A DNA stretch of 64,000 bases from Cohnella sp. AR92. GTDB lineage: Bacteria; Bacillota; Bacilli; Paenibacillales; Paenibacillaceae. The stretch lies in NCBI RefSeq assembly GCF_003990975.1, contig NZ_RZJR01000012.1, positions 124,001-188,000 on the forward strand. The letters are read 5' to 3'. Shown in pieces: positions 10,274-49,316 of the stretch (position 1 is the stretch's first letter; every line of letters starts with the position of its first letter). A model generated the notes under the pieces. The model was not told the origin of the DNA. It saw only the letters and a program-made list of their open reading frames with translations, and did no database searches. Position numbers and translations under genes: made by a program.

Positions 10274-11438
10274 AATTGCCATCGTTCACGATTACTTGAA
10301 TCAGATGGGCGGTGCGGAGCGGGTTGTCGGCCTGCTTCACCAGATGTTCCCGGAGGCTCCTATTTATACGACCATTCTGGATCATGAGCGGCTATGGCCG
10401 GAGCTTGCGATGGCGGACATCCGAACTTCCTGGATGCAGCGAATTCCAGGCATTCTGAAGCACTCCAAGCACTTCTTCTGGCTGTACCCATTCGCCGTAT
10501 CCACCATGAAGGTCAAAGGCTACGATCTGATCATCAGCTCAAGCAGCGCTTTCGCGAAGGGCGTCACCGCACGCGGTTCGACCCGCCATATCTGCTATTG
10601 CTACACCCCGATGAGATTCGCTTGGGACTTCTCTACGTACATGGAGTCGAACGAAGTGAGTTCCCTGCAGAAGGCGATCGCGCGATGGGCCATGCTTCCG
10701 CTCCGGCTCTGGGATAAGCGCAACTCCGGCAAGGTCGATCGGCTCGTGGCTATCTCATCCATTGTTCAACGTCGCATCGAGAGCTATTACGGCCTCCCTT
10801 CCGATCTGATCTTCCCGCCCGTGAACGTAGCCAGGTTCAAGCTATCGGAAATGCCGCCGGAAGATTATTATCTGGTCGTCTCTAGGCTCGTTTCCTATAA
10901 GCGGATCGATCTGGCTGTTGAAGCCTGCACGAGGGCAAAGAAGAAGCTAATCGTGATCGGAGACGGTCCGGATCGAGTTCGTCTGGAGTCGCTTGCAGGT
11001 CCGACCGTACGTTTTATGGGAAGGCTATCTGATGGTGAGATCGAACGATACATGCAGCATTGTCTCGCTTTTCTTTTCCCAGGACTCGAAGACTTCGGCA
11101 TTACGCCGCTTGAGGTAAACGCTTGCGGTCGTCCGGTTATCGCCTTCCGCGGGGGAGGCGCTCTTGATACGATAGATCCTGCCGTCAACGGTCTCTTCTT
11201 CGATAGGCAGAGCGTACCCGACCTCATCATGGCCATGGAAGAAGCAAAGTCGCGGAACTGGGATTCTGCTTCAATCCGGCGTCACGCCGAGAAATTCGGA
11301 GAGCAGGAATTCCGGAATCGGCTGATTCAGCTTGTTCAATCCGTAATGGGGCTACAGCCTTCTATCAACGAAACAGGGCTTTCCCCGGAGTCGTATTTCG
11401 ACAGGCGAGAAAGCCCACTGCGCTCTAATATCCGATAA
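10257..11438 (+). CDS. Glycosyltransferase family 4, WbaZ-like
   Basis: 393 residues. IAIVHDYLNQMGGAERVVG is the WbaZ/mannosyltransferase-type N-terminus; HICYCYTPMRFAWDF and the C-terminal DFGITPLEVNACGRPVIAFR (with the E-x7-E-like region) fit GT4. Last gene of EPS block A on this strand; its stop overlaps the 3' end of the convergent tail-fibre-like gene by 14 bp. It is paralogous to the gene at 27843 (both open with IVHxxL...ERV and carry VNxxxF/EDFGI blocks), which suggests both EPS blocks add a related, possibly mannosyl, residue. Confidence 0.87.
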   Translation: MSSPYKIAIVHDYLNQMGGAERVVGLLHQMFPEAPIYTTILDHERLWPELAMADIRTSWMQRIPGILKHSKHFFWLYPFAVSTMKVKGYDLIISSSSAFAKGVTARGSTRHICYCYTPMRFAWDFSTYMESNEVSSLQKAIARWAMLPLRLWDKRNSGKVDRLVAISSIVQRRIESYYGLPSDLIFPPVNVARFKLSEMPPEDYYLVVSRLVSYKRIDLAVEACTRAKKKLIVIGDGPDRVRLESLAGPTVRFMGRLSDGEIERYMQHCLAFLFPGLEDFGITPLEVNACGRPVIAFRGGGALDTIDPAVNGLFFDRQSVPDLIMAMEEAKSRNWDSASIRRHAEKFGEQEFRNRLIQLVQSVMGLQPSINETGLSPESYFDRRESPLRSNIR

Positions 11439-14400
11439 AGATAATCGTTCCGGAATAGGACGTCTTGCTGTTCGGATTCAACTGAATCGCATTACCGTAA
11501 TTTGTCTGGAGGATGGCGGAAGCCGGCATTCCGGTCGTGTTCTGGAGTAGCGTTGCCTGAGCCATATCGGTCAGAGGGAACTGGAATGGAATGCTCTGAG
11601 CGGTAGAGGTACTGTTGACGTAATTCTTAAGAGTAAGAGTGATTTGCCACATCTGATAATACCCGTTCACAAGTCTCATCGGGGCTTGGTCGATGAACAC
11701 GTTGCCTCCCGAAGTTCCTTTATAGGCCTTGTCGCTTCGAGCCTGGCCATTGATTGTGAAGTAGCCTCCGAGAATGTTGAAGCTTGTGTTGTCGAAGGAG
11801 CCAACCCACTTGGCGGCATTGTCTCGAATGCGAATCCCCGGCAGCGTATCGGAGTTATAGTAGGTGAAGCCGCTTAGTCCGGGCTCATAAATGATCGTCC
11901 CTCGACATTGACCCACGATAACGGATTCGGCCGTCGGATACGCCGAAAGAGTGTTGGAAACATCGACATACCAGCCGAAGCCTGGATTGCGAATCGTCAC
12001 GCCGATGAGTCCGCCCGCGCCAAGTCCGGGGTTGCTGTTCCATGATTCCGAATAGATGGCGGCGTTGCCGATTCCCTCGAAACGAACGCTGTCGAGCACC
12101 CATTCGATAAGAAAAGCTATCGGGTTCACTCCGCTTACCGGAGCCTCCTGATAGATGCCGAACGGGCAGACGGAGAGATGGCATCGGAGGAAGAACGTCT
12201 CCGGATGGCCGGAATGATCGGAGGCGACAGCGATTGCGGCGAAGGAAGCATGATCGAGTGTACAGTCGATAAAATTATGGTCGCCTTGGTCGTTCTTGAA
12301 ATAAACGTTGTAGTAAGAGCCGCTGAAGTAACAATGCGTCATCGAGGAATGGCTTGCGCCGTTTATGACGAGACCATGTCCGAAGTCGGAGATATTAACC
12401 CGATTTAGGAAGGAGCGTTTCGTCATCTCCACGCCATTGTAAGCACGAGTTTTTACTCCAAGCGTCCAGGTTCCCGTTCCCCCTCGAAGCGTTACGTCCT
12501 CCATCCCGGTTGTAAACCCTGAACCGGGAGGGTTCATAAGGATGGCTGCGACACCGTCTCCAAGACTAGTATCTACCGTAATTAGACTAACTCCCGCCCC
12601 CATCCCTTTGATGATGATCTTATTCAGAACCAGTTGCTTCCTTAGGAAGTATTCCCCGGCCGGAATAACTAAGGTTCCGCCTCCTAAGGTGTTCAGCGTC
12701 GCGATCGCGTTCTGAAAAGCGGCTGTCGCATCCGTTCCGGCCGTCGCATTCAGAATGACTTGGCCTCGAATGCCAGCTCCCGTACCGATGACCGTCGTCG
12801 AGATTGTCACGTTCGAGGAACCGTCGAAGGTTGCTGAGCCCGACACGCCCCCCGTCAGGGAGATCGTGCGGGCAGTCTGCAGTTTGGCTGCCTGATCGAC
12901 GATGCCATCGCCATTCGCGTCATAAACACTCTTCTTCATGTCGCCGAAATTCGGAGCGGAAGTGGTGATCGTCACGTCCCTGGAGCCGTCGAAGTTGGCG
13001 GATCCCGACACATCTCCTGCAAGGATAATGTTACGAGCGTTCTGCAGCTTGGCGGTCTGATCGACGACCCCGTCGCCGTTCGCGTCATAAACGTTCTTCT
13101 TCATGTCCCCGAAGCTTGGAGCGGAAGTGGTGATCGTCACGTCCTTGGAGCCGTCGAAATTGGCGGATCCCGAAACGTCTCCCGCAAGGATAATGTTGCG
13201 AGCGTTCTGCAGCTTGGAGGCTTGATCGACGATGCCGTCGCCGTTGGTGTCGTAAACGCTCTTCTTCATGTCGCCGGTGCTTGGAGCGGAAACGGTAATC
13301 GTTACGTCCTTGGAACCGTCGAAGCTGGCAGATCCCGACACATCTCCTGCAAGGATAATGTTGCGAGCGTTCTGCAGCTTGGCTGCCTGATCGACGATAC
13401 CGTCGCCATTGGTATCGTAAGTACTTCTCGACATATCGCCTGATCCGCTTCCGCCGCCGCTAACGGCACTTATGGCAAATGCGGAAGCGGGTATTAAGGC
13501 AGCCATCAACGGATGTGCCGTACTGTTCGGGTGGATTCCATCGTTTGTATAGGAGGCCTTCCAAACGGGATCGCCGTTTGTCTTGCTTGTCGTAACGATT
13601 ATGCCTGTGTCAAATACGGCATCGAGACCGATTGGAGCGGGAATTACTGATCCCGACACGGTTTGGACAGACGATCCGTGAAGCCACCGATTAAGGTCGC
13701 CCCATACTTCATTGCCACCGTTCGCTCTCAATTTGAAATTGGCGGCGGTAGGAGTTTGGTTGGCTACCGTGCTAAAGCTGTCAGTCGACGATGTGCTGAC
13801 GCCGGGAACGCAGGAATAAACCTTAACGCCAGCATTCTTGATTCCGCTTATCAGCGTTTGATAGAGATTTGTAATAGACGAGATAGCGGTACTGCCCTGG
13901 TTATGAGGCGAATTAATGTCGTTTACCCCATACTCGATCATAGCATGCGTGCAATAGGGCAGGAAGCTAAAGCGATCGCTAACGTAAGTGGAGACATATC
14001 CGTTGTTCATAACGACGTCTTCCAGCGATTCTCCGTTTCCTCCGAGATCGATCCATGAGCCTCCGGCGGCATTAACAGCCATCTGCATGAAGCCGTAGGA
14101 GAGGCCATAGGTGCTGCTCCCCATTCCAACACCCTTAGAGATGGAATCGCCGAACAAAGCGACGACCGGATAAGGGGCGGAGCCGGGATTAGGCCTGCCT
14201 ATGCATAGGATCGCACCATATCCGTTGCCCTCGCGTGGAGACAGCATGCTCCAGGTGGAGCTCTCGGTCGTCGCCCCGTTAACTATAGTCGTACCGTTAT
14301 AGTATTGGGAATTGTTGAAGACACCGGCAGTTTGGTTGGTCAGATCCCCATCGATCCAACCGTCCCCCGCGCTAATGGACATCCGCCAGTTGAGCGGCCA

Positions 14401-14976
14401 TTTGGTCTTGGCATAGATACGCAGGTATACCGTCTGCCCTTTCGTGAAGGCGCCGCGGAACTTGTCGGTGCGGACGGTTTGATCCGAGCCGACCGTAATG
14501 GTTCGAGAGGCGTTAACCGTCAAGGGGTAGAATGTGACATCTCCCGTCCCAGACGGCACTTCGAGCGTCACCTTCAATTCGAGAGAGGCCGTATTCCACG
14601 AGCTTGGATTTTGGAAGACCCACTGCACGTCCGAGCTGTTCACGGTAAAGATATGCTTCTGGCGGAACGTTACTCCTCCTTTGGTGCCTGTCACGCTGTC
14701 CTTGCCCGCATAGGTCTCGGCACCTGTGAAGCTTGCTTCGTTCCGCTTGCCGACAACGCGGATATTCGGAAGGTTATAGGCGACGATAGCGGAAGAGGCA
14801 GATCCCCCGGAGAGAGTCGTCGCGATCGACACGTTGGCAGAGCCGTCGAAGGCAGCCTTGCCGGTAACATCTCCAGTCAAGGCGATCGTTCTTGCCGTTT
14901 GGAGCTTTGCGGCTTGATCGACCACACCATTGTTGTCTTTGTCGTAGACACTTTTCTGCATGTCGCCGCTGGCCAT
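11425..14976 (-). CDS. Phage tail-fibre-like SGNH hydrolase / beta-helix protein with Ca-motif repeats
   Basis: 1183 residues, no signal peptide. Order: one copy of a 56-residue module (residues 1-56: GDM...YDKDNNGVVDQ...TGDVTG...FDGSANV); a beta-sandwich-like region to about 270; an SGNH/GDSL hydrolase (ALFGDSISKG near 275, GVNDIN near 355, DGIHPN near 478); four tandem copies of the same module (about 512-736); and a C-terminal right-handed beta-helix of the pectate-lyase-3 type starting GTLVIPAGEYFLRK. The DxNGDGxxD segment resembles an EF-hand/dockerin Ca loop. Such module trains occur in phage tail fibres, so an origin as a depolymerase/esterase acting on surface polysaccharide is likely. 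AGGAG upstream supports ATG 14976. It stands alone and antisense within EPS genes. Confidence 0.8.
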   Translation of the reverse strand: MASGDMQKSVYDKDNNGVVDQAAKLQTARTIALTGDVTGKAAFDGSANVSIATTLSGGSASSAIVAYNLPNIRVVGKRNEASFTGAETYAGKDSVTGTKGGVTFRQKHIFTVNSSDVQWVFQNPSSWNTASLELKVTLEVPSGTGDVTFYPLTVNASRTITVGSDQTVRTDKFRGAFTKGQTVYLRIYAKTKWPLNWRMSISAGDGWIDGDLTNQTAGVFNNSQYYNGTTIVNGATTESSTWSMLSPREGNGYGAILCIGRPNPGSAPYPVVALFGDSISKGVGMGSSTYGLSYGFMQMAVNAAGGSWIDLGGNGESLEDVVMNNGYVSTYVSDRFSFLPYCTHAMIEYGVNDINSPHNQGSTAISSITNLYQTLISGIKNAGVKVYSCVPGVSTSSTDSFSTVANQTPTAANFKLRANGGNEVWGDLNRWLHGSSVQTVSGSVIPAPIGLDAVFDTGIIVTTSKTNGDPVWKASYTNDGIHPNSTAHPLMAALIPASAFAISAVSGGGSGSGDMSRSTYDTNGDGIVDQAAKLQNARNIILAGDVSGSASFDGSKDVTITVSAPSTGDMKKSVYDTNGDGIVDQASKLQNARNIILAGDVSGSANFDGSKDVTITTSAPSFGDMKKNVYDANGDGVVDQTAKLQNARNIILAGDVSGSANFDGSRDVTITTSAPNFGDMKKSVYDANGDGIVDQAAKLQTARTISLTGGVSGSATFDGSSNVTISTTVIGTGAGIRGQVILNATAGTDATAAFQNAIATLNTLGGGTLVIPAGEYFLRKQLVLNKIIIKGMGAGVSLITVDTSLGDGVAAILMNPPGSGFTTGMEDVTLRGGTGTWTLGVKTRAYNGVEMTKRSFLNRVNISDFGHGLVINGASHSSMTHCYFSGSYYNVYFKNDQGDHNFIDCTLDHASFAAIAVASDHSGHPETFFLRCHLSVCPFGIYQEAPVSGVNPIAFLIEWVLDSVRFEGIGNAAIYSESWNSNPGLGAGGLIGVTIRNPGFGWYVDVSNTLSAYPTAESVIVGQCRGTIIYEPGLSGFTYYNSDTLPGIRIRDNAAKWVGSFDNTSFNILGGYFTINGQARSDKAYKGTSGGNVFIDQAPMRLVNGYYQMWQITLTLKNYVNSTSTAQSIPFQFPLTDMAQATLLQNTTGMPASAILQTNYGNAIQLNPNSKTSYSGTIIFIGY
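12768..13440 (-). repeat. Four tandem 168-bp coding repeats
   Basis: Four consecutive 168-bp units inside the tail-fibre-like gene, each encoding about 56 residues that start SGDM/FGDM-KK-VYD-NGDGIVDQ and run through LQNARNIILAGDVSGSA. Unit starts are 168 bp apart (about 13440, 13272, 13104, 12936). The middle copies are nearly identical in DNA, suggesting recent homogenisation. A fifth, more diverged copy opens the protein. Confidence 0.85.
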
Positions 14977-37728: not shown

Positions 37729-38608
37729 ATTCGGACGGGTTGCGGTGACGGGAGCGGGGGGCATGCTCGGCGTCGATATGTGCAAGGCGCTGGAGCCGCA
37801 TGCGGAGCAAGTGCTGGCATGGGACCGGACCGCTCTGGACGTCACCGACCTGGAAGCGGTCTTGACCATGTTCCGAATCCACCAACCGGAAGCCGTCGTG
37901 CATTCGGCGGCTTATACGAAGGTCGATCAAGCGGAGGCAGAGCCGGATCTGGCGTTCCGGGTGAATGCGATCGGCGCGCGCAACGTGGCTCTCGCGGCGG
38001 AGGCGGCCGGAGCCAAGATGGTCTACGTGAGCACGGATTACGTGTTCCCCGGGACGAGCGAGAAGCCCTTGAACGAGTATCAGGACACAAGCCCGATCAA
38101 CGTCTACGGCGAATCGAAGCGGGGTGGCGAGTGGCTCGCCAGCGGCTTGGTTTCGCGCCTCTTCATCGTTCGGACCTCTTGGCTGTACGGCGATCATGGG
38201 CCGAACTTCGTGAAGACGATGCTGAAGCTGGCGGAGAAGAAGGAGCCGATACGGGTAGTCGGCGATCAGATCGGCTGCCCGACGTACACCGTCGATCTCG
38301 CCAGGACGATCGTCCGGCTGCTGGAGACGGAGAAGTACGGAACCTATCATGTCTCCAACTCCGGAGCCTGCTCGTGGTATGAGTTCGCCGAACGAATCTT
38401 CGACCTTGCCGGGCTGTCCGTCGATCTATCGGCGGTGACCAGCGAGCAATTCAAACGCCCCGCTCCGAGACCGGCATATTCGGTCCTCGATCATATGGCC
38501 CTTAGGGTGAACGGCTTCCCGCCGATGAGGGATTGGGAGACCGCGCTTAAGGAATACCTGCGCCATAATCAACTGCTCAGGCAAGAATCGAGGCCTATCG
38601 AATGCTGA
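37718..38608 (+). CDS. rmlD: dTDP-4-dehydrorhamnose reductase
   Basis: About 296 residues. VAVTGAGGMLGVDMCKAL, VVHSAAYTKVDQAE (the RmlD AAYT-VD-AE motif), YVSTDYVFPG, YGESKRGGE (YxxxK) and FIVRTSWLYG identify RmlD. It reduces the final keto intermediate to dTDP-L-rhamnose. Starts within the end of rmlB and overlaps the nucleotidyltransferase gene by 7 bp, so the rhamnose genes and the following genes seem to be one transcript. Confidence 0.93.
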   Translation: MAHKFGRVAVTGAGGMLGVDMCKALEPHAEQVLAWDRTALDVTDLEAVLTMFRIHQPEAVVHSAAYTKVDQAEAEPDLAFRVNAIGARNVALAAEAAGAKMVYVSTDYVFPGTSEKPLNEYQDTSPINVYGESKRGGEWLASGLVSRLFIVRTSWLYGDHGPNFVKTMLKLAEKKEPIRVVGDQIGCPTYTVDLARTIVRLLETEKYGTYHVSNSGACSWYEFAERIFDLAGLSVDLSAVTSEQFKRPAPRPAYSVLDHMALRVNGFPPMRDWETALKEYLRHNQLLRQESRPIEC

Positions 38609-39768
38609 CCATCGAGCTGCTGGAGCGATCGTACAACAAGCAATCTCCGCTTCTGGCATGCGAGCGGGACTATCGGGCCTCCTTGGAGGAGATCGGAAGT
38701 CAGGGGGTGGCCGGTCCGATCTATCAGATTCTGAAGGAGAACCAGTCGCTTACGAGCGTGCCGGCGTTCTTCAAGGAAGGGTTGGAACGGCAGCGGGAGC
38801 GTCATTCGTATCTAAACCTGTTGATCAAGAACGAAGCGGAGCGGATCGTCGCCGCTCTGGACAGCGAAGGGATTCCGGCCATCGTCCTGAAGGGGCTATG
38901 GCTTTCCCGCCGTCTCTATGGAAGCAGCGGCGTTCGCCAGACCGGGGACGTCGATCTGCTCATCCATAAGGAGCAATTGGAGGCTGCCTCCAAGGTTCTT
39001 CTATCGCTAGGGTACATAGACGTGGATATCGAGAGGCACAGCTCCTATCATCACCTGTTCGGCAAGTGGAACCCCAGCACCAAGATGCCGATTCATGTGG
39101 AGCTTCATTGGCATGTCGTGCAAACGGATTATTGCCGAATGGAATGCGACTCGTTATGGGAGCAATCCCAGCCGCTTCCTTCCCGCGATCGGATCCGGGA
39201 GCTGTCCATTCCGGACTTGTTCTACACGTTATGCTTGCACGGCGCCAAGCACAACATGGCTTCGCTGAAGCACGTCCTGGATATCGTGCGGACGATTCAT
39301 CTCTACGGCGCCCAGATCAGCTATGAGAAGCTGCTCCGCAGGGCGAGAGAGGATCATCTTTACGGCATGGTCGTCATGGCCTTATCCGTCGTCTATCGTC
39401 TCATGCCGCACCTGATGCGGGTGAAGCCTTTCGGCGAGACGAAGACCTGGTTCCCTTGGAATCAGGAGCTGGCATGGAGGAAGGAAGAGGATTATCGGCT
39501 GTTCCGTTTCAAGGGACTGGCCTACTACCTTCATCAAGTGTTGTTCACGCTGGGGAAGCTGGATCTTCCGAGATACCGGATTCTATACCTCTGGCGAATG
39601 GTCTTCCCGCCTCCCGAGCTGATCCGAATCTACTTGGGGCGGCCGGCTACGGATTCGAGCTTTGGGCTGTACATGCGTTGGATTGGACGTTTCCGGCAGG
39701 CGGGCAGGAGGAAGGCGGCTCCCGCGCGCGCCGCCGATATCATCATTCAAGGGGAAGACCTTCGATGA
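38602..39768 (+). CDS. Nucleotidyltransferase family protein (PadeN-like)
   Basis: 388 residues. IPAIVLKGLWLSRRLYGSSG then VRQTGDVDLLIHKEQLEAA shows the nucleotidyltransferase D-x-D motif (DVDLL), with a His-rich stretch and a helical C-terminal half; it fits the NTP_transf_5 group. Members occur in lasso-peptide loci such as paeninodin and in HPr-kinase/PqqD clusters. It overlaps rmlD and shares an ATGA overlap with the LCP gene, so it could act on EPS or on the RiPP 1.5 kb downstream. The substrate is unknown. Confidence 0.78.
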   Translation: MLTIELLERSYNKQSPLLACERDYRASLEEIGSQGVAGPIYQILKENQSLTSVPAFFKEGLERQRERHSYLNLLIKNEAERIVAALDSEGIPAIVLKGLWLSRRLYGSSGVRQTGDVDLLIHKEQLEAASKVLLSLGYIDVDIERHSSYHHLFGKWNPSTKMPIHVELHWHVVQTDYCRMECDSLWEQSQPLPSRDRIRELSIPDLFYTLCLHGAKHNMASLKHVLDIVRTIHLYGAQISYEKLLRRAREDHLYGMVVMALSVVYRLMPHLMRVKPFGETKTWFPWNQELAWRKEEDYRLFRFKGLAYYLHQVLFTLGKLDLPRYRILYLWRMVFPPPELIRIYLGRPATDSSFGLYMRWIGRFRQAGRRKAAPARAADIIIQGEDLR

Positions 39769-40715
39769 AACTTGGTAGAAGAAGACGTTGGCTCTGGATT
39801 AGTTTATCGGTCGTTACGGTGCTTATAGTCGGAGCTTTGAGCTTGATCGGCTATCTCTACTGGTCGGTCAAAGAAACGGCAAGCGAGATTTACGAGCCGC
39901 TTCCCTCGGACCGTCCGAGGTACGTGAGCACGGACAAGGAGATACCGGCGTCGCCTGCTCCCGTGCAGACGGAACAATTGTCTCCGTTCTCCGTCCTGCT
40001 GCTCGGAGTAGATGAACGCGAGAACGACAGAGGGCGCTCGGATACGATCATCGTGATGACCGTCAACCCGAAGAGCAAGAAGATCCTGATGTACAACATC
40101 CCTCGCGATACGCGGACGGAGCTGGTGCTTCGGGGAACCCAGGATAAGATCAATCACGCCTATGCCTATAACGGAATCGAAGGGTCGCTGGCGACGGTCG
40201 AGAAGTTCGTCGACATGCCGATCGACTATTACGTCGAAGTGAACATGGAAGGCTTCAAGCTCATCGTGGATACGCTGAACGGCGTCGACGTGAACAATCC
40301 GTTCGCATTCGATTACGAGGGCGAGAAGTTCCCGGCCGGGCAGCAGCATCTGAACGGAGAACAGGCGCTTAAATTTTCCCGCATGAGGTACGACGATCCG
40401 AGAGGCGACTTCGGACGGAACGACCGCCAGAAGCAAGTCATTCAGGATGTCATCCACCGGGCGACGAAGTGGAACAACACGAGCGCGCTTCCGTCCATTC
40501 TGAACGCTATCGGGGACCACGTCCGTACGAACCTGACCTTCGGGGAACTGCAGGATCTGGTGCTGAAGTACAGGAAAAACCTGAACGACATCGAGACCAC
40601 CTTCATCGAGGGGCAAGGGACGATGATCAACGGGATCTACTATTACGTGGTCGATCAGAAGGAAAGGGACCGGATACACGAGCTGATGAAGCAGCAGCTG
40701 GCCGCGACGTCCTGA
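39765..40715 (+). CDS. LytR-CpsA-Psr (LCP) family phosphotransferase
   Basis: About 316 residues. A cationic N-terminus and one membrane helix (LWISLSVVTVLIVGALSLIG) precede the LCP domain: FSVLLLGVDERENDRGRSDT, MYNIPRDTRTEL, KINHAYAYNGIEGSL, VEVNMEGFKLIVDTLNGVDV, LKFSRMRYDDPRGDFGRNDR. The catalytic-type Arg/Asp set is present. LCP enzymes attach undecaprenyl-linked polymers to peptidoglycan outside the cell. Start ATG 39765 overlaps the preceding stop (ATGA), so the upstream extension of this frame is not used. Confidence 0.92.
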   Translation: MKLGRRRRWLWISLSVVTVLIVGALSLIGYLYWSVKETASEIYEPLPSDRPRYVSTDKEIPASPAPVQTEQLSPFSVLLLGVDERENDRGRSDTIIVMTVNPKSKKILMYNIPRDTRTELVLRGTQDKINHAYAYNGIEGSLATVEKFVDMPIDYYVEVNMEGFKLIVDTLNGVDVNNPFAFDYEGEKFPAGQQHLNGEQALKFSRMRYDDPRGDFGRNDRQKQVIQDVIHRATKWNNTSALPSILNAIGDHVRTNLTFGELQDLVLKYRKNLNDIETTFIEGQGTMINGIYYYVVDQKERDRIHELMKQQLAATS

Positions 40716-40727
40716 GGAGGAGAGAGA

Positions 40728-41255
40728 ATGAGAAGAACGTTTGCGTTCGGCGCCATTCTGGTTCTGCTCTGGACAGGCCTGATCTTCGTATTTTCCTCGG
40801 AGCCGTATAAGAAGCAGAGCATTCAGCCATTGCTGCATGAGCGGCTGTCCGGGAGCCCGCTGCTTCAAGACATTCCGGATATCTCCTTCACTTATGACGA
40901 CAGTACGGTTTCTTCCCGGAAGGATCCGTTCGAATTCCTGGAATTCATTTTCCGCAAAAGCGCTCATCTGTTCATGTACGGCATGCTGGCGATATTCTGG
41001 AGCCTGCTTCTGGGCAAGATTTGGCGACTACGCGGCTGGCGGCTTCTGCTTCCCGTTCTGGCGGTCGTGGCGGCAACGGCCTCCCTGGACGAGTGGAATC
41101 AGTCTTTCGTAGAAGGCCGAACCTCCTTGCCGAGCGACGTGGGGATCGATCTTGCCGGAGGATTGTTGGGATTCCTGTCGTTACGTGCGATCGCAATGCT
41201 ACATAATGTGTTGACTAGATACAGGTTGTATCATAGAATAAGGACAGAAAAGTGA
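40728..41255 (+). CDS. VanZ-family membrane protein
   Basis: 175 residues. FGAILVLLWTGLIFVFSSEP opens the protein, and IFRKSAHLFMYGMLAIFWSL followed by ASLDEWNQSFVEGRTSLPSD are VanZ-like hallmarks (R-K-x-x-H-x-x-x-Y; D-E-x-x-Q). About four membrane helices. Function unclear; the family includes the teicoplanin-resistance accessory protein. GGAGGAGAGA supports ATG 40728. The last 15 codons overlap the palindromic promoter of the precursor gene. Confidence 0.85.
   Translation: MRRTFAFGAILVLLWTGLIFVFSSEPYKKQSIQPLLHERLSGSPLLQDIPDISFTYDDSTVSSRKDPFEFLEFIFRKSAHLFMYGMLAIFWSLLLGKIWRLRGWRLLLPVLAVVAATASLDEWNQSFVEGRTSLPSDVGIDLAGGLLGFLSLRAIAMLHNVLTRYRLYHRIRTEK
41211..41239 (+). promoter_or_regulatory. 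Sigma-A promoter with GATAC-N5-GTATC palindrome as spacer (RiPP operon)
   Basis: -35 TTGACT (41211-41216), 17-bp spacer AGATACAGGTTGTATCA (41217-41233), -10 TAGAAT (41234-41239). It lies inside the 3' end of the vanZ-like gene and 27 bp before the TTG start of the precursor. Near-identical architecture to the promoter of the orphan precursor at 17464. Confidence 0.8.
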
Positions 41256-41266
41256 GGTGATACAAA

Positions 41267-41440
41267 TTGAAAACCTATGAGAAACCAGAGGTGTTGGTTC
41301 ATCAGGCTGTCGTATTCGAAGGCCATTCGCAGCCTTCCGGTCATCCCGGTTGGCCATGGCCTGGAGGCGGTCATGGCGGCGGTGGCGGCCATGGCGGCGG
41401 TGGTCACGGAGGCGGTGGCGGCGGCCATGGCGGCTGGTAA
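41267..41440 (+). CDS. Candidate RiPP precursor, Gly/His-rich core (57 aa)
   Basis: TTG 41267 to TAA 41438-41440. The leader MKTYEKPEVLVHQAVVFE shares K-x-Y-x-x-P and the identical VHQAVVFE with the peptide at 17519. The core begins GHSQPSGHPGWPWPGGG and continues as runs of Gly punctuated by His (HGGGGG, HGGGG, HGGGGGG), ending HGGW. GAGGTG lies 7 bp before the TTG. Followed by genes for an HPr-kinase-like protein, a PqqD-like protein, a peptidase-like protein and an exporter, so it is the likely substrate. The core could be crosslinked, phosphorylated, or bind metal through the regularly spaced His; none of these is shown. Confidence 0.72.
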   Translation: MKTYEKPEVLVHQAVVFEGHSQPSGHPGWPWPGGGHGGGGGHGGGGHGGGGGGHGGW

Positions 41441-41483
41441 TCGGCACCGCGGCATGGCTAAAGCAAATCTTGCATGCACGCAG

Positions 41484-41509
41484 GGGAGAGAGAGCTTGCT
41501 CTCTCTTCC
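41484..41509 (+). promoter_or_regulatory. Stem-loop between precursor and modification genes
   Basis: 12-bp stem GGGAGAGAGAGC / GCTCTCTCTTCC with one G-T wobble and a TT loop, not followed by a U-tract. Probably a leaky attenuator or RNA-stabilising hairpin that keeps the precursor transcript in excess over the enzyme genes. Confidence 0.6.
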
Positions 41510-41537
41510 ATGACGATCGACATAGGAGGAACTCCAG

Positions 41538-42338
41538 GTGATTGAGAGATGGCAGCGCTTCGGCAGCTTGCTGGTTCGGCTTAGGTTCGTTAGCGCCAAT
41601 GCGGCTGCGTTCACGAAGCATACGATCGGCGATCAATATGTAGACGTAGCCCCGGGTACGGAGCCCGATTATTCGCTTACGCTTGAAGACGGCTACGGCG
41701 AGAACTACGACGAGGTGACACCCGTCGGCTACGAGAAGAACGAGCGGGGCGACTTCAGGGTGTCCCGGGCAGACTTCTTGGTGGAATCGACGGCGGACTT
41801 GCGGGAGGCGCACATCCGCTTCTATAACTACTTCGGGCTTCGGACGGCGCTGCTGAATTGGTACAGCCGGATCCTCTCCAGGCTGGATTGGGGGATGCTG
41901 ATCCATTCCTCGTGCATCGTTCAGGACGGGCAGGCTTACCTCTTCTCCGGATATTCCGGAGCCGGCAAGTCGACGATCGCTTCGATGTCGCAGCCGAGAC
42001 CGATTCTTGCCGATGAGACGACGGTGGTCGAGATTCGCAAGGATGGCCGGATCCTGATTCACGATTCGCCTTTCCGCAACGACTTTAAAGAGCCCTACCG
42101 CGAGGGCCCCGTTCCTCTGAAGGGAATCTACCTTATCAAGCAGTCTCTGAATATCGAGCAGCATCGAATGACGAAGAGCGACGCGATGTTCGCCTTGTTC
42201 GACAAGATTGTCCATTGGCGGCACGAGAACGCGGACACGATCGGGCTCATTCGCCTTAGCAAAACCTTGGTGGATCGGGTTCCCGTATACGAATTGGAAT
42301 TTCAGAAAAACGATCGATTCTGGGAGGCAATCTCATGA
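41538..42338 (+). CDS. HPr kinase/phosphorylase-like protein (PadeK-like)
   Basis: 266 residues from GTG 41538 (AGGAGGA 8 bp upstream). A short HprK-like C-domain is evident: GMLIHSSCIVQDGQAYLFSG, then Walker A GYSGAGKST near residue 140, ILADETTVVEI and IHDSPFRNDF. In paeninodin-type lasso loci a homologous kinase phosphorylates a serine of the peptide; in other bacteria HPr-kinase-related proteins pair with PqqD relatives. Here both candidate cores contain a Pro-Ser...Gly segment that might be the target. Ends in ATGA overlap with the PqqD gene. Confidence 0.85.
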   Translation: MIERWQRFGSLLVRLRFVSANAAAFTKHTIGDQYVDVAPGTEPDYSLTLEDGYGENYDEVTPVGYEKNERGDFRVSRADFLVESTADLREAHIRFYNYFGLRTALLNWYSRILSRLDWGMLIHSSCIVQDGQAYLFSGYSGAGKSTIASMSQPRPILADETTVVEIRKDGRILIHDSPFRNDFKEPYREGPVPLKGIYLIKQSLNIEQHRMTKSDAMFALFDKIVHWRHENADTIGLIRLSKTLVDRVPVYELEFQKNDRFWEAIS

Positions 42339-42601
42339 GACTGGAAAGACTGCAAGCGGTAGAAGTGCTGAAGATGGACGGAGAAGTCATCATTCTTAAC
42401 CAGGAGACCTTCGCGGTCACGAAGCTCAACGGCACGGCGGGCTGGATCTGGGAACAGCTCGATAGCGGTCTCACTCAGGAACAGCTGGTTGAGAAAATGG
42501 CGGCGGAGTACGAGGGAGCGGACACCGAGCAGATTCGCGCGGATCTCGACCGTTTTATCGATCAGATGTCGGGCATCGGGCTGATTCAGCGTGCGGGATG
42601 A
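42335..42601 (+). CDS. PqqD-like RiPP recognition protein
   Basis: 88 residues. VIILNQETFAVTKLNGTAGW, IWEQLDSGLTQEQLVEKMAA and IRADLDRFIDQMSGIGLIQR give the winged-helix PqqD fold used to bind RiPP leaders (RRE). In lasso-peptide systems the equivalent B1 protein binds the YxxP leader element, which both peptides here carry. It overlaps its neighbours on both sides, so it is translationally coupled to the kinase and the peptidase-like protein. Confidence 0.88.
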   Translation: MRLERLQAVEVLKMDGEVIILNQETFAVTKLNGTAGWIWEQLDSGLTQEQLVEKMAAEYEGADTEQIRADLDRFIDQMSGIGLIQRAG

Positions 42602-43139
42602 GCTTCTCAGCACGTTCCACGGACTCATGAAGGCGAAGGGGGAAGTGATTCTTCCGGCCTCGGGTCTGAGCATGTACCCCTATATTCTGCCCCGGGATGA
42701 ATGCCGATTCGTTCCCTTTGACGGACGAATGGCTCCCGGACAGATCGCTCTCTTCGTCAGCGAGGAAGGCGTGCTGATCTCCCATCGCCTGCACCTTGCG
42801 GAGCTGCACCTTGCGGAGCCCTGGAATAAGGAAGAACGATATTGGCTGCGCGGAGACGGCAACTTCAGCGGCGACCGCCCGGTCGGCCGGGCGCAGATGA
42901 TCGGGATCTTGGTCGAGGTAACGCGCAACGGGAGGAAAATAGCCGAGAAGCGCTTCGACCGGAGATGGTGGGGACGGCTGGCGGTCCGGTACCCGCGGCT
43001 GCTGAAGCTATCGGCCCATGCCTCACGGTGGCGTGCGAAGCGAGAGTCGGCCTTCACGGACGAAGGAGGAGGACAAGATGGCGTCTCGAACCGCTTCCCT
43101 GAATCTCCCGCAAGAGGAGCAGCCTCCGGGAATCCATAA
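42591..43139 (+). CDS. S24/S26-like peptidase without membrane anchor
   Basis: 182 residues. ILPASGLSMYPYILP contains the nucleophile-serine motif of signal peptidases (G-x-S-M-x-P), VLISHRLHLAE places a His-Arg where the S26B class has its catalytic His, and YWLRGDGNFSGDRPVGRAQM matches the S26 [K/R]GD-N-D box. No membrane helix is seen, unlike true signal peptidases. Most likely the leader peptidase of this RiPP system, replacing the transglutaminase-like B2 of lasso loci; inference. GTG 42591 overlaps the PqqD stop; the C-terminal 20 residues overlap the ABC gene. Confidence 0.72.
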   Translation: MRDELLSTFHGLMKAKGEVILPASGLSMYPYILPRDECRFVPFDGRMAPGQIALFVSEEGVLISHRLHLAELHLAEPWNKEERYWLRGDGNFSGDRPVGRAQMIGILVEVTRNGRKIAEKRFDRRWWGRLAVRYPRLLKLSAHASRWRAKRESAFTDEGGGQDGVSNRFPESPARGAASGNP

Positions 43140-45270
43140 AGGAACGGACGAAGAAGCCGATCCGGAAGCATGGAGTTCCCCGCTCTCGGAGGAGGGGCGA
43201 ATGGAACGAAGGACGGTCGTTCTTCGGGCCGCCGGACTCGAGATTCGCGATGCCCAGGGAAGGTGCCTCCGTTCGATCGAACGGCAATCGGTAGCCGGAG
43301 CCGTCGTGCGCGAGACGGGCGGCGGGGCTTGGCTCGAGCTGGAGCTGACGGACGGCGGCGTCGTTCGGGCGGCGATGAGCGCTCTTGCCGGGGCGAGCGG
43401 CTTGCAGGCATTCCGGGATAAGGTTGAACGATGGGCGAGTCAGACGAACGAAGGCTTCCGGGAAAAGGCTAATGGCGAGTCTACGCAAGAGGGAACCGAG
43501 ACCAAGCTGACCTGGCGAAGAAGGCTTAAGGCGCTGTCCGGCCTGCTGGGCTACGCCGTTCCCCATCGCAAGGCGATTCTATTCTCCTGCGCAGTGCTGC
43601 TCGTCGGAGTCGGATTCGAAGCGCTGCCCCCTTATCTGATGAAGCTCATGGTCGACGAAGGCATTCTGCAAGGCTCGGTTACGAGATTCGTCGGCTTGAT
43701 CGCGCTTCTTCTGTCGGTTTATTTTCTCCAGGCTGGATTCCAGGTTCTCCGCACCTCCATTACGATTCGAATCGGCAACCGAATGATGAGCCGTATTCGC
43801 AAGGATATGTTCGACAAGCTGATGAAGCTGTCCGTTCGCTATTATGAGAATCGAGCGACCGCGCCTTTTATCGGGCGCATTCAATATGACACCTCGTGGG
43901 TGCAGGGCTTCCTGAGCGAAGGAATCCCGCAGCTCGCTGCCCAGACGGTTATGGCATGCGCGATCTTCGCCATCCTGTTCGCGATCGATTGGCGGCTTAC
44001 GCTCGGAGTCGCGGCGCTGCTTCCGATTTGCGCCTTGCTGGTGCTCTGGCTGTGGCCTAGGATGCGCTCGCGGATGAACCGCACCTGGAATACGCAATAT
44101 TGGCTGCAGAAGTACATAGGGGAAGCCCTGCAAGGCATTCGGGTCATCAAGGCTTTCCGCCGCGAGGACGAAGAGAAGCGGCGTTTCAGCCAGTTCAACG
44201 AGGAAGCGGTTCGGAGGGCCATCGATCAGCAACGCATGCTTCAATGGCTCCAGCCGGGAATGAATCTGGCCATCTCCGCGGGAATCGCGCTCGTTTGGCT
44301 TATCGGCGGCCAGTACGCGATTCGAGGCTCGTCGAGCCTCGGGACGCTGATCGCCTTCACGACCTACCTGTCGATGTTCCTCGGCCAACTGCGTTGGAAC
44401 ATGAATCTGGCGAGCCAAGCGAACGCATCGATCGCTGCTGCCGACCGAATTTTCGATCTGCTTGGCACGGACGATGAACTGCAGGTGGAAGGCGAGGCGG
44501 TAAGAATGCCTGCGGCCAAGGGCGAGATCGCCTTCGAAGAAGTAACCTTCGGTTACGAGAAGGGGCGCGAGGTGCTAAGAGACTTCAGCCTGCGGATCCG
44601 GCCGGGGGAGAAGATCGGCATCACCGGCCATACGGGAGCCGGCAAGTCGACGCTCCTTCAATTGCTTGGCCGTTTCTACGATCCGGACGCCGGAGCCGTT
44701 CGGCTGGATGGAGTCGATCTTAAGCGGATCGATCCGGCGGATCTGCGGAAGAGCATCGGCATTGTCTTCCAAGACACGTTCCTGTTCGACGGAACGATCG
44801 CGGAGAACATCGCTTACGGCGTCGCGGATGCTTCGCCGGAACGGATCATGGAGGCGGCGCGCCTTGCCCGCGCCCATTCCTTCATCGAGCGCCTGCCCTT
44901 CGGGTACGACACCCGGGTAGGGGAGCGCGGAGTGAGATTGTCCGGGGGAGAGAAGCAGAGAATCTCCATCGCCCGAACGCTGCTGCTGAACCCTGCGATC
45001 CTGCTGCTGGACGAAGCGACTTCTTCCGTCGACCAGGAGACGGAGCGCGATATTCAGGAAGCGCTGGACGTCCTGAGCGCAGGAAGAACGACCATTGCGA
45101 TCGCCCATCGCTTGTCCACCCTGCGGAACTCGGACCGGATCGTCGTGCTCGAGCAGGGAAGGCTCGCCGAGATCGGAACGCACGAGGAGCTGGTCCGTCG
45201 CGGCGGCATTTATCTCAAGCTGCTCGAAGCGAGGCGCGAGCTTCCGAGACAGGCCGCAACGGCGGGCTGA
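43078..45270 (+). CDS. ABC exporter (fused membrane and ATPase), DUF1854-partner type
   Basis: About 730 residues. An extra N-terminal domain of about 150 residues (RTVVLRAAGLEIRDAQGRCL) precedes six helices (from AILFSCAVLLVGVGFEALPP) and an ATPase domain: Walker A TGHTGAGKSTLLQLLG, Q-loop VFQDTFLFDG, signature VRLSGGEKQRISIA, Walker B AILLLDEATSSVDQ, H-loop IAIAHRLSTL. Likely exports the modified peptide, possibly after or with leader removal, though the extra domain is not a C39 peptidase. AAGGAGGAGG supports ATG 43078; an alternative start at 43201 has GGAGGGG. The partner DUF1854 gene follows. Confidence 0.9.
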   Translation: MASRTASLNLPQEEQPPGIHKGTDEEADPEAWSSPLSEEGRMERRTVVLRAAGLEIRDAQGRCLRSIERQSVAGAVVRETGGGAWLELELTDGGVVRAAMSALAGASGLQAFRDKVERWASQTNEGFREKANGESTQEGTETKLTWRRRLKALSGLLGYAVPHRKAILFSCAVLLVGVGFEALPPYLMKLMVDEGILQGSVTRFVGLIALLLSVYFLQAGFQVLRTSITIRIGNRMMSRIRKDMFDKLMKLSVRYYENRATAPFIGRIQYDTSWVQGFLSEGIPQLAAQTVMACAIFAILFAIDWRLTLGVAALLPICALLVLWLWPRMRSRMNRTWNTQYWLQKYIGEALQGIRVIKAFRREDEEKRRFSQFNEEAVRRAIDQQRMLQWLQPGMNLAISAGIALVWLIGGQYAIRGSSSLGTLIAFTTYLSMFLGQLRWNMNLASQANASIAAADRIFDLLGTDDELQVEGEAVRMPAAKGEIAFEEVTFGYEKGREVLRDFSLRIRPGEKIGITGHTGAGKSTLLQLLGRFYDPDAGAVRLDGVDLKRIDPADLRKSIGIVFQDTFLFDGTIAENIAYGVADASPERIMEAARLARAHSFIERLPFGYDTRVGERGVRLSGGEKQRISIARTLLLNPAILLLDEATSSVDQETERDIQEALDVLSAGRTTIAIAHRLSTLRNSDRIVVLEQGRLAEIGTHEELVRRGGIYLKLLEARRELPRQAATAG

Positions 45271-45326
45271 ACGAAGACGGAGAGGAATCGTCCGTTTAGG
45301 GAATGGAGCGAGGAAGGAGGAGCGCG

Positions 45327-45953
45327 GTGAACATCGGCACGAACAGAAGCGAAGCGGACAGAATCGGTTCGGAGAGAAGCGGCGTGGAAAGTCGCGGCGT
45401 GGTGAGCGGCGGGGTGGATGTAATCGGCGTGGAGAGAAGCGGTGATAGAAGCAGCCTGGAAAGAAGCGCCGTGGAGTGCAGCTGGATCACCGCGGAGAGC
45501 ATTCGTTTCCGCCGGGAAGAAGGCGGCTCCTTGCGGGCCGAATGGGGCTCGCGAGCCGGATATGTTCGGGTGCGCCGTTTGTTTCCGCTCTCGTCGCCGG
45601 ACAGCGCCATCTGGATCGGGGATCGTTCCGGTTCCGAGTGGGGAGTGCTTCGATCCCTCGCCGGATTGGAGCCCGCAAGCCAAGCGGCGCTGGCCGAAGA
45701 GCTAAGGCTAAGCCCGTTCCTGCCGAGGATCGCCAGAGTCGTGTCGCTCCAGCGCCGCTTCGGAGAGTTTCGCTGGACGGCGGAGTCAGACGCCGGAGAG
45801 ATTGTTTTCCATACGGGGCCCCTGTACGAATCGGTTACGGCCCTTCCGGGCGGCGAACGCGTGGTCATCGACCGTAACGAGCAGAGGTACGTGCTGCCGG
45901 AAGACCGTGTGCTAGACAGCAAGACTCGCAAGAAGCTTGCCAAGTGGTTATAG
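45327..45953 (+). CDS. DUF1854-family protein, ABC exporter partner
   Basis: About 208 residues from GTG 45327 (AAGGAGG 6 bp upstream; ATG 45303 is an alternative). The N-terminal 45 residues are low complexity (RSEADRIGSERSGVESRG), coded by a degenerate GAAGCGG-type repeat. From about residue 70 the DUF1854 landmarks appear: YVRVRRLFPLSSPDSAIWIG, RLSPFLPRIARVVSLQRRFG, TGPLYESVTAL, RYVLPEDRVLDSKTRKKLAK. DUF1854 proteins are found next to an ABC transporter with an extra N-terminal domain, as here, and are thought to work with it; mechanism unknown. Confidence 0.8.
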   Translation: MNIGTNRSEADRIGSERSGVESRGVVSGGVDVIGVERSGDRSSLERSAVECSWITAESIRFRREEGGSLRAEWGSRAGYVRVRRLFPLSSPDSAIWIGDRSGSEWGVLRSLAGLEPASQAALAEELRLSPFLPRIARVVSLQRRFGEFRWTAESDAGEIVFHTGPLYESVTALPGGERVVIDRNEQRYVLPEDRVLDSKTRKKLAKWL

Positions 45954-45969
45954 AAGAGGAGAGTTCCGA

Positions 45970-46149
45970 ATGAAGGTACACGAATTCTATTGCTTAAGCT
46001 GCGAACAGATGAAGGAAATCGACCCGTCCGCGGCCGTATTCAAGACAGGCTTCTACCGCACCGAATATCCCCTGGGGTACTGCCGCGAATGCCAAGAGAA
46101 GGCGCTGCTGCCCGAGAAACGGCCGGTTCTCGCCCCGATCGGATCCTAA
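45970..46149 (+). CDS. Small zinc-ribbon-like protein (59 aa)
   Basis: MKVHEFYCLSCEQMKEIDPS carries CxxC and YPLGYCRECQEKALLPEK a second CxxC, with about 30 residues between, a zinc-ribbon arrangement. GAGGAGAG precedes ATG 45970, only 16 bp after the DUF1854 stop, so it is the last gene of the operon. Role unknown; it could bind metal or nucleic acid. Confidence 0.7.
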   Translation: MKVHEFYCLSCEQMKEIDPSAAVFKTGFYRTEYPLGYCRECQEKALLPEKRPVLAPIGS

Positions 46150-46908: not shown

Positions 46909-47982
46909 TCATCTGCGAGAATCGAGCCATACCTCATCCGGCGGAGTATCATTGGGTGTTCCGGATGTTTTACTGTCACTGCCGCGACTCCCGTCACTCC
47001 CATCGCCCCTAGTGCTGTCGCACTCATCACCGCTCGCGTTATCGCTCCCATCGCCCCTAGTGCTGTCGCTCTCATCTCTGTTCGCGATGTCGCTCTCATC
47101 ACCGCTCGCGTGATCGCTTCCATCGCCGATCCAATCGCTCTTGCCGCCCCAATAGCCGCTGCCGTCTTCTCCCGCCGCCAACTCCACGAACGCGCGATGA
47201 ACCTCGCGAATCTGCTGCAGGCTGTGGAAGCCGACGATGACCTCGTCGATCTCCGGGATGCTTCGGATGAAGGAGAGAGAGCCTTCGAGCGGAGTTAAGC
47301 CTTGCTGCGACCACGTCCAGTGCAGTGCGGCAAGCGGCGCGCGCAGGCGATCGTGCGCGGGAGGTAGGCTTGAGGGGGCGAGGAGAAGCAGGCCGTGCAA
47401 GAGAACGGACCGAGCCTGAATCTCGATGCCGGCGTTGCGCAGCTGTCGAAGATGGCCGTTCGTAAGAAGCTTGCGATCCAAGGCGTTGATCGGAAGCTGT
47501 ACGAGATCGGGCGTGTACCGCTCCATCAGCCGGTCGAGCTCGTCCGCTCCGTTAAAGACGGAGAAGCCGATCTTGTCCGTGCGTCCCTCTGCCTTCCAAT
47601 CCGTCATCCGTTCCCAGATTCGCTCGCCGCCCGGCTTGAGCAGATCCTCTCCTTGGCGGACGACAACGGCATACACCGGCCGCCTTCTCATCGTTTTAAG
47701 GGATCGCTGAAAAGCCGCCTCCATGCGGCCGATCGGCTCCGGGCCGATCCATTCCTCGGGGAACTCGGGCGTCTTGGTAATAATGCGCGGGAACGCATAT
47801 CCTTCCTTGATATGCCCGATAATCGACTCGCTGTCTCCGTATCCGGGCGCGGTATCGATCGTCTCGATTCCCGCTTGCCGGGCATAAGCCATGATGGCGG
47901 CGACTTCTTGAAACGGCACCCTGCCATGGTCAAGAACGCGGTTCCCTAGGCCGAAGGGGATGGTGCCAAGGGCCAGCTTCAT
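46909..47982 (-). CDS. Aldo/keto reductase with repetitive Ser/Asp tail
   Basis: About 357 residues. KLALGTIPFGLGNRV, IETIDTAPGYGDSESIIG (catalytic Asp...Tyr), ITKTPEFPEEW (Lys) and IGFSVFNGADELDRLM are aldo/keto reductase features; residues 1-285 cover the TIM barrel. The final 65 residues are six imperfect 8-residue units of the type xxxGDxSD (STRGDGSD, NASGDECD), coded by 24-bp repeats at about 46985-47130; this tail is not part of the family. GGGAGGAG supports ATG 47982, which overlaps the upstream gene (ATGA). Likely an NADPH-dependent sugar or aldehyde reductase. Confidence 0.82.
   Translation of the reverse strand: MKLALGTIPFGLGNRVLDHGRVPFQEVAAIMAYARQAGIETIDTAPGYGDSESIIGHIKEGYAFPRIITKTPEFPEEWIGPEPIGRMEAAFQRSLKTMRRRPVYAVVVRQGEDLLKPGGERIWERMTDWKAEGRTDKIGFSVFNGADELDRLMERYTPDLVQLPINALDRKLLTNGHLRQLRNAGIEIQARSVLLHGLLLLAPSSLPPAHDRLRAPLAALHWTWSQQGLTPLEGSLSFIRSIPEIDEVIVGFHSLQQIREVHRAFVELAAGEDGSGYWGGKSDWIGDGSDHASGDESDIANRDESDSTRGDGSDNASGDECDSTRGDGSDGSRGSDSKTSGTPNDTPPDEVWLDSRR
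46985..47130 (-). repeat. 24-bp tandem repeats coding the aldo/keto reductase tail
   Basis: About six 24-bp units, arranged partly as a 48-bp higher-order repeat (CCCCTAGTGCTGTCGC occurs twice, 48 bp apart). They code for xxxGDxSD octapeptides. Confidence 0.75.
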
Positions 47983-49223
47983 CCGATCAGCTCCTCCCTG
48001 TACAAGCTTTGATCGCGTTCCGTCGGGGGGATGGGGGTGCCATCTCCTTGGAAAAGCATAACGTGAACGTTGCCGGACGAATCGCTGGCGGCAACCCCGA
48101 TCCGGCTGAGCGACTCCGGCGGAATGGTGGTGGAATCGAACAAACAGAACCATTCGCGTTTATGGGAGAGCGGCTCGAAGCTTCCGTGGCGAAAGTGTCC
48201 GTCCTTCGTCTTGAGAGCCAGGAAGGGCTGGGCGCCGAAGGTGTCTTTGTTCGAGCGGACCCGGAGCAGCAGGCCGGAATCGTGCTTCTCGAACTCGGCT
48301 TCGAGCTCAAGCGGGCGGATGTCGCGCAGGCCGAGGCTCTGCCTGGCGGCATTAAGCGCTCCGGAATGCTCCCAACGCACGTTGGGATACTTGCGCTCGG
48401 CTTCCTTGAGCAGACTGTACACGTACTCGACAACGGGACTCAGTTCCATGCTGTCGCGGCTGTAGAAGGCGAGCACGGTCGGGTATCCTTCATCCGCGCG
48501 GCGGAACGCAAGCTCCGTCTCCGTCTGATTCAGTTGGCGATCGTGATTCTCGGTCGGCAAGCATTTGAAAATGGTGCGGTTGCAGGAGCCTTCCCGCTGA
48601 ATATCGTCGTAGGAAGGGCGGTAGTGGGACCAGTCCCACACCGCTCTCCGCCACTCCATGGAAGCTCCGGTCTCCTGCTCTATCGAACGCTTGAGACCCC
48701 GATACCGGGAGACGGAGCGGTTCGCGAAGTCGAACGGGATCCACTGCTCAAGGAACCAGTGCGTGTCCGAACGCTCGGAGTAAGGACCGGGGTGGAAGCA
48801 GGCGGGGAACCAGCCCCGCTCGACGACTTGCCGCGTCAACCGGCCGATCATCTGCGGATAATGAAGAAAGGCAGCGTTGCGTTCGGAAGGAATTCCGGAA
48901 GCGAAGGAGGGCCGAAAGTGCCAATGAAGCTCGTCCTTCGAAGCATCCGCTTGCAGAAACCGGGAATAGCGATCCAGGATCTCGTGCGGATTAGGATCAT
49001 CGTTCGGGTAGCCCGTCTCGGATAAGGAAGAATCGGCCGCGAACCAACTGAAGATCCAGCCATGACCGGTCGGATCGGCATGGCGTTCGCGGAATTCCGC
49101 GCTCGTCGCCTCCGAGATCATGGAGTCGATCCGATCCCAGGAGATCGCTTGCGCATCCGGCGAGTCGCGAAGAGGTCCTTCCGCATCGACGCAATGCACG
49201 ACATAAACCGTAGGATTCGCCAT
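47979..49223 (-). CDS. Hypothetical protein, polysaccharide-deacetylase-like (WbmS-like?)
   Basis: About 414 residues. Starts MANPTVYVVHCVDAEGPL, where VDAEGP resembles the Asp-containing first motif of NodB-type deacetylases; HWHFRPSFASGIPSE, PACFHPGPYSERSDTHWFLE and later VEYVYSLLKEAERKYPNVRW fit a divergent (beta/alpha)-barrel of that kind. Such proteins occur in surface-polysaccharide loci. GAAGAGG supports ATG 49223. It is coupled (ATGA) to the aldo/keto reductase. I cannot assign a substrate. Confidence 0.55.
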   Translation of the reverse strand: MANPTVYVVHCVDAEGPLRDSPDAQAISWDRIDSMISEATSAEFRERHADPTGHGWIFSWFAADSSLSETGYPNDDPNPHEILDRYSRFLQADASKDELHWHFRPSFASGIPSERNAAFLHYPQMIGRLTRQVVERGWFPACFHPGPYSERSDTHWFLEQWIPFDFANRSVSRYRGLKRSIEQETGASMEWRRAVWDWSHYRPSYDDIQREGSCNRTIFKCLPTENHDRQLNQTETELAFRRADEGYPTVLAFYSRDSMELSPVVEYVYSLLKEAERKYPNVRWEHSGALNAARQSLGLRDIRPLELEAEFEKHDSGLLLRVRSNKDTFGAQPFLALKTKDGHFRHGSFEPLSHKREWFCLFDSTTIPPESLSRIGVAASDSSGNVHVMLFQGDGTPIPPTERDQSLYREELIG

Positions 49224-49316
49224 GTTCCAAACCTCTTCCTCAACATTTTCAAACGACGAGATTGAATGGATGACCTGCAGCAATTGCAAGTCTTAAGCCC
49301 CTGTTACGGCTCTCAA

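Follow-up and report, generated by a model that had tools for sequence, protein, structure and literature searches.

A candidate DUF1854-associated branch of the linear polyphosphorylated peptides in Cohnella

The locus described here raises the question of what a soil-type bacterium would make from a small Gly/His-rich open reading frame that is followed by genes for an HprK-like kinase, a PqqD-like protein, a soluble signal-peptidase-like protein and an exporter. An earlier note on the window (the whole analyzed stretch of 64,000 nucleotides, contig C5:124001-188000) had read it as a RiPP operon of an undescribed class distinct from lasso peptides. We consider it likely that the locus belongs to a divergent, DUF1854-type branch of the RiPPs called "linear polyphosphorylated peptides" (LPP), which Popov et al. 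reported for Bacillota (Nat Commun, 20 May 2026; PMC13381572), and that an RRE, a kinase, a peptidase and an exporter act in the scheme proposed below; the probable product is an exported phosphopeptide without its leader. The RiPP reading stands, since kinase, RRE and soluble peptidase genes adjoin a small precursor gene, whereas "undescribed" no longer applies, the core set having been in print as LPP since that publication (PMC13381572).

Gene content and surroundings

All the genes that the earlier note had named are found in the window, in the order it gave:

38602..39768, plus strand: NTP_transf_5 nucleotidyltransferase, LppN-like (PF14907, 152.5 bits)
39765..40715, plus strand: LytR-CpsA-Psr (LCP) glycopolymer transferase (PF03816, 169.4 bits), a neighbor kept in the branch
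40728..41255, plus strand: VanZ-like membrane protein (PF04892, 54.8 bits), a neighbor kept in the branch
41254..41261, plus strand: Shine-Dalgarno sequence of the precursor gene, GAGGTGAT, the same in 5/5 Cohnella loci compared, window included
41267..41440, plus strand: candidate precursor peptide, LppA-like, 57 codons, TTG start
41484..41509, plus strand: hairpin in the precursor-kinase interval (folding z -2.37)
41538..42338, plus strand: HprK-like kinase, LppK-like (P-loop GYSGAGKST)
42335..42601, plus strand: discrete RRE/PqqD protein, LppB-like (PF05402, 64.8 bits, cut-off 23.4)
42591..43139, plus strand: soluble SipW-type (S26) peptidase, LppS-like (Ser27/His65/Asp95 in alignment A4; fold of the model)
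43078..45270, plus strand: ABC exporter of the DUF1854-associated lineage (NF052233 match; exporter tree)
about 45327..45953, plus strand: DUF1854 protein, putative exporter partner (PF08909, 89.0 bits)
45970..46149, plus strand: small CxxC..CxxC zinc-ribbon-like protein (DUF3973, 18.9 bits, E 0.0016, short of the cut-off of 25)

The overlapping gene order that had been described is real, except that a 97-nt gap with the hairpin inside it splits the precursor gene from the kinase gene; the nucleotidyltransferase does lie upstream, with the LCP and VanZ genes intervening before the precursor. A hairpin 3' of the precursor gene recurs in five relatives (z -2.96 to -3.77) with differing stem sequences, and it is possible that it serves as an attenuator of the downstream genes. 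The GTG start of the DUF1854 gene was chosen because of an upstream AGGAGG; at the N-terminus its product carries a repeat-like, Ser/Arg/Gly-rich extension (45327-45460) that is absent in relatives.

Sixteen loci carry the DUF1854 exporter set (the window, L064-L067, L069, L170-L178 and L188), and the order NTP-LCP-VanZ-precursor-kinase-RRE-S26-ABC-DUF1854-DUF3973 is found in seven of them, the window among these. Most related loci have an NTP_transf_5 gene close to the kinase gene, and the nearest named relatives of the window locus are Cohnella species. Membership of the LCP, VanZ and DUF3973-like genes in the cassette is uncertain. Exopolysaccharide genes, including those for Wzz, a flippase and a sugar nucleotidyltransferase, lie upstream of the cassette; LPP clusters are often found in capsular polysaccharide loci (PMC13381572). 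Within the same exopolysaccharide region, the minus strand encodes a 1183-residue protein (11425-14976) that contains a GDSL-lipase-like stretch as well as repeats of the unit NGDGIVDQAAKLQ...ISLAGDVSG. Beyond the cassette, a 436-residue protein on the minus strand (47979-49289) had no Pfam match at E<=0.001, and its neighbor, an aldo/keto reductase (46909-48153), has a Gly/Asp/Ser-rich repetitive tail.

The precursor and its processing enzymes

The precursor consists of the leader MKTYEKPEVLVHQAVVFEG, then HSQPSG, then a Gly/His-rich tail ending HGGW; its Gly/His-rich core is GHGGGGGHGGGGHGGGGGGHGGW. With the window excluded, the precursor-family profile recognized a precursor (E<1e-3) for 69 of the 72 loci that have a kinase and an S26 gene, an independent figure of 41/44 given that 28 of the 72 had supplied profile rows, and the same profile found 0/72 matches on the letter-reversed loci. 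Two of the three misses (L083 and L176) are close to contig ends, and the third, L129, matches at 0.0035. Four columns, Tyr4, Pro7, Phe17 and Ser24, are invariant in an alignment of 36 precursors drawn from the wider family (A2), in which gaps bring the serines into register. Between the window and its nearest relative, L064, codons 2-26 show nine synonymous and three non-synonymous differences; the leader is near-identical in the two, and the core varies freely, L064 having only QRPSGKWPPRGRH after the His. The small ORF that the earlier note expected to be conserved at this site is present in relatives and, judged by its sequence, is a genuine precursor. The only Ser/Thr in the 14-residue L064 core is the PSG serine, which leaves no other candidate in L064 if the kinase acts as in Paenibacillus alginolyticus, where LppK puts several phosphates on core Ser3 (PMC13381572). 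The window precursor also has Ser21, so that Ser24 is not its sole possible site.

The published precursor motif is YxxPxVLxHQxIxFETxxS (PMC13381572), and the window leader matches it at Y, P, V, L, HQ, F and E, with Gly at the T-1 position and the serine two residues later. Among 23 distinct precursors of the DUF1854-type loci, one of which is a doubtful ORF (L172 7448-7585), the cut-site triplet is FGT in 17, FEG in three and FER, FEH and FET in one each; among the 57 other precursors it is FET in 56, the 57th (L072) having been picked up by the search pattern in error. Position F+5 in these 57 is Ser in 52, Cys in four and the L072 mismatch in one, whereas the serine of the branch stands at F+6 in 17 precursors; in the five Cohnella loci nearest the window it is the PSG serine, at F+7. 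Thus, 22/23 branch precursors depart from the published motif in lacking FET and in having Ser one or two residues later. The window precursor would also escape the second-round motif Px9Fx[T/A] used as a filter, and the main text of the paper mentions neither Cohnella nor DUF1854 (PMC13381572).

Other cores differ in kind. L170-L178 have one to three precursors each (for example, L178 8429-8647), with a strongly conserved core, NISNxxFYxWCxxxxFxPxIC, whose two conserved cysteines set it apart from the low-complexity cores elsewhere. A second Gly/His-rich core, ending GGGHWPF, occurs in Terrilactibacillus (L139 6626-6829), distant from the window (E 3.1e-4).

The enzymes keep the residues expected of LPP proteins. 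Kinase Lys144 is present in 16/16 DUF1854-type and 43/43 other loci, and the window kinase has the P-loop and the invariant residues of the HprK-like LPP kinases, for which the 36-72% identity range is not needed. The window RRE is discrete and of the LppB kind: its best PDB sequence match is LppB (9x8z, E 2.2e-11), compared with 8.1e-5 for TbiB1 and 0.021 for the paeninodin RRE. Equivalents of the leader-binding residues N33 (16/16 DUF1854-type and 41/43 other loci; 57/59 in all) and D70 (16/16 and 40/43; 56/59 in all) are widely kept; position 39 is Ile/Val in 16/16 DUF1854-type loci versus Cys in 34/43 others. LppS, the SipW-like leader peptidase, uses S29, H68 and D93 and acts with the RRE LppB to remove the leader (PMC13381572); equivalents of all three residues are found in 16/16 DUF1854-type and 43/43 other loci. 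The S26-like protein of the window had been described as having no membrane helix, in agreement with a highest 19-residue Kyte-Doolittle mean of 1.01. It had no Pfam or NCBIfam match at E<=0.1, and the fold of its model is nearest to the signal peptidase complex and LexA-type chains, with a best Foldseek E of 2.2e-3 and nothing at E<=0.001. The NTP_transf_5 gene (38602-39768) supplies the NTP transferase of LPP clusters, LppN (PMC13381572). An HprK-like kinase with a PqqD-like protein also recalls the SynChlorMet cassette, ScmC being the best NCBIfam match of the kinase; the SynChlorMet cut-offs are not reached (ScmC, 38.3 versus 125 bits; ScmD, 20.7 versus 100). L068 (8578-9393) is a decayed copy in which the kinase P-loop is broken (SDAREST), the S26 gene is absent and a precursor was not found.

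The exporter and the extent of the branch

The exporter of LPP clusters is LppD (PMC13381572). The window has no MsbA-like exporter of the LppD lineage, its ABC exporter lying on the DUF1854-associated side of the exporter tree; we therefore treat the locus as belonging to a variant branch and not as strict LPP. That tree was built with 18 selected non-DUF1854 loci, all but L095 yielding a long ABC piece, and eight selected DUF1854 loci outside LPP. All 16 branch exporters join the ABC transporters that adjoin DUF1854 outside LPP loci, and the 17 LppD exporters stand apart from them; the dividing branch measures 1.42 with a support of 99, and the 16-locus group has a support of 98. The L187 exporter lands by LppD, on a long branch flagged by the tool. 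The exporter and DUF1854 protein of the window resemble the "cyanophycin metabolism-associated" pair NF052233 and NF052234, but both score below the curated cut-offs (488.3 versus 880 bits and 54.8 versus 150 bits, respectively). DUF1854 is frequent (134/394 genomes of the family) and is therefore no marker of these peptides. In L181 (5288-9436), a DUF1854 gene without an ABC transporter lies between LCP and DUF3973 and may have stayed behind when a cassette was lost.

The joint kinase, RRE and peptidase tree, with 59 rows, places the 16 loci on one side with an SH-aLRT of 90, which falls below the starred level of the tool; 0/500 label shuffles did equally well. Near-copies and incomplete or odd loci (16 named, including L068, L072, L073, L138 and L139) were left out of this tree, as were rows without one of the three proteins. 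The RRE-only tree gives the 16 loci as a grade beside the lasso side and not as one group (three changes), which speaks against a simple clade, albeit on only 94 columns. The DUF1854-type loci form a separate, divergent branch of the LPP family, which the exporter brings out more clearly than the RRE tree does.

Compared with the reference LPP locus, the lpp cluster of P. alginolyticus DSM 5050 (L113 here), the window shares the Y-type leader, the HprK-like kinase, the discrete RRE, the soluble SipW-like peptidase with its S/H/D residues, the NTP transferase, an ABC exporter, the exopolysaccharide neighborhood and a cassette without cyclase or B2. Unlike it, the window has FEG where L113 has FET at the cut site, the serine at F+7 where L113 has it at F+5, a Gly/His-rich core, NTP-LCP-VanZ genes upstream, and a DUF1854 partner for its exporter, which belongs to the DUF1854-associated lineage.

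Alternative readings and the proposed pathway

Paeninodin-type lasso loci have a kinase, an NTP transferase, a discrete RRE and an ABC exporter in common with the window. A lasso cluster is nevertheless rejected, as it was in the earlier note: the window contains no lasso cyclase and no B2 gene, the leader is of the Y type and not the W type, and in the RRE tree, from which four unassignable RREs were left out, the 70 LPP-side RREs, that of the window included, are split from eight lasso RREs at 100/100. The earlier note had named a cyclase and B2 gene elsewhere in the genome, paired with this leader, as a finding that would refute its reading; a cyclase and the genome's one B2 match do occur on contig C19, and the only Asn_synthase match on C5 lies outside the window and is a short stretch of low significance (4.1e-6). 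It is very improbable that the C19 locus supplies cyclase and B2 in trans to make a lasso peptide of the window precursor. Such sharing would suit a genome that encodes both enzymes and the [YW]xxP motif common to both leaders, but the C19 lasso locus (L075) encodes a separate W-type precursor (leader WHEPTL) beside its cyclase, kinase, RRE and B2, the window has a Y-type leader and an LPP-side RRE, its core lacks the Asp or Glu that a ring would need, a B2 gene is absent genome-wide in 5/18 searched cassette-bearing genomes, and LPP and lasso RREs are reported to discriminate (PMC13381572). L075 (7699-11698) is a complete paeninodin-like lasso locus, with its precursor on the minus strand (9573-9716; leader KKQWHEPTLETLDV) and an adjoining sulfotransferase-like gene, in the very genome that carries the Y-type cassette of the window. 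Across species the cassette nonetheless often adjoins lasso genes: within the stretches covered, these are present in 18/56 related loci, but in 0/16 DUF1854-type loci. In L187 (5799-13936), a lasso cassette (kinase, B2 and RRE) between VanZ/LCP and DUF1854-DUF3973-ABC fills the slot of the phosphopeptide cassette of the window, which may reflect a swap of cassettes where an exopolysaccharide locus ends.

Two further readings accept much of the same evidence. That the locus is a strict LPP cluster altered by ordinary drift, with no separate branch warranted, is in our view unlikely; the core enzymes are the same, the RRE-only tree gives a grade and the joint-tree support is only 90, but against this stand the split between the exporter lineages (16/16 versus 17/17), the deviating motif in 22/23 branch precursors and the exchange at RRE position 39. 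Quite improbable is a core that acts mainly as a metal-binding or surface peptide, with a kinase directed at something else, for example, a sugar or another protein. The composition of GHGGGGGHGGGGHGGGGGGHGGW, the similar core of L139 and the location within an exopolysaccharide gene region would fit this, but it is the serine that persists and not the histidines, L064 and L067 keeping the PSG serine without the Gly/His repeat, and a homologous kinase acts on the precursor (PMC13381572).

Under the DUF1854-type LPP reading, which we prefer, the gene content, its conservation, the kept catalytic and binding residues and the membership in the branch are established, and we infer leader binding, phosphorylation and cleavage from the P. 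alginolyticus system. The RRE would bind the YEKPEV part of the leader via Tyr4 and Pro7; the kinase would phosphorylate the PSG serine, core Ser24, probably with more than one phosphate; and the soluble SipW-type peptidase, aided by the RRE, would remove the leader after F-E-G, near Gly19, the exact cut at Gly19 being a guess. The ABC transporter and the DUF1854 protein would then export the Gly/His-rich core, the role of DUF1854 as export partner being likewise a guess, and the NTP transferase may decorate the phosphates with an additional group, a guess also made for LPP and paeninodin-type peptides. For signal-peptidase-type enzymes, a small residue before the cut is suitable. The relatives L067 and L069 have Arg or His at the published T-1 position, which is unsuited to such enzymes, so the cut site may differ within the branch; in P. 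alginolyticus, T-1 of the leader mattered for cleavage (PMC13381572).

The exopolysaccharide region and the adjoining LCP gene hint at a cell-surface or matrix/exopolysaccharide role for the peptide; the authors of the LPP study speculate on a cell-surface or matrix role as well (PMC13381572). A bolder and rather unlikely extension is that the branch is a second phosphopeptide class, in which one exporter swap went together with a shifted phospho-serine, a shifted cut site and new cores, Gly/His-rich in Cohnella and NISNxxFYxWCxxxxFxPxIC with conserved cysteines in relatives. The LCP enzyme encoded upstream would then join the exported phosphopeptide to exopolysaccharide or a wall polymer, yielding a conjugate of ribosomal peptide and glycopolymer.

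These comparisons tie a formerly orphan locus to a RiPP family in which RRE structures have been solved (PMC13381572), and they indicate that the LPP family is wider than published, with a branch whose exporter is of a different lineage and has a DUF1854 partner, and whose precursors would evade the published motif search. The branch offers natural variants of the phosphorylation site and of the leader cut site, and peptide export would provide a first concrete setting for asking what DUF1854 does.
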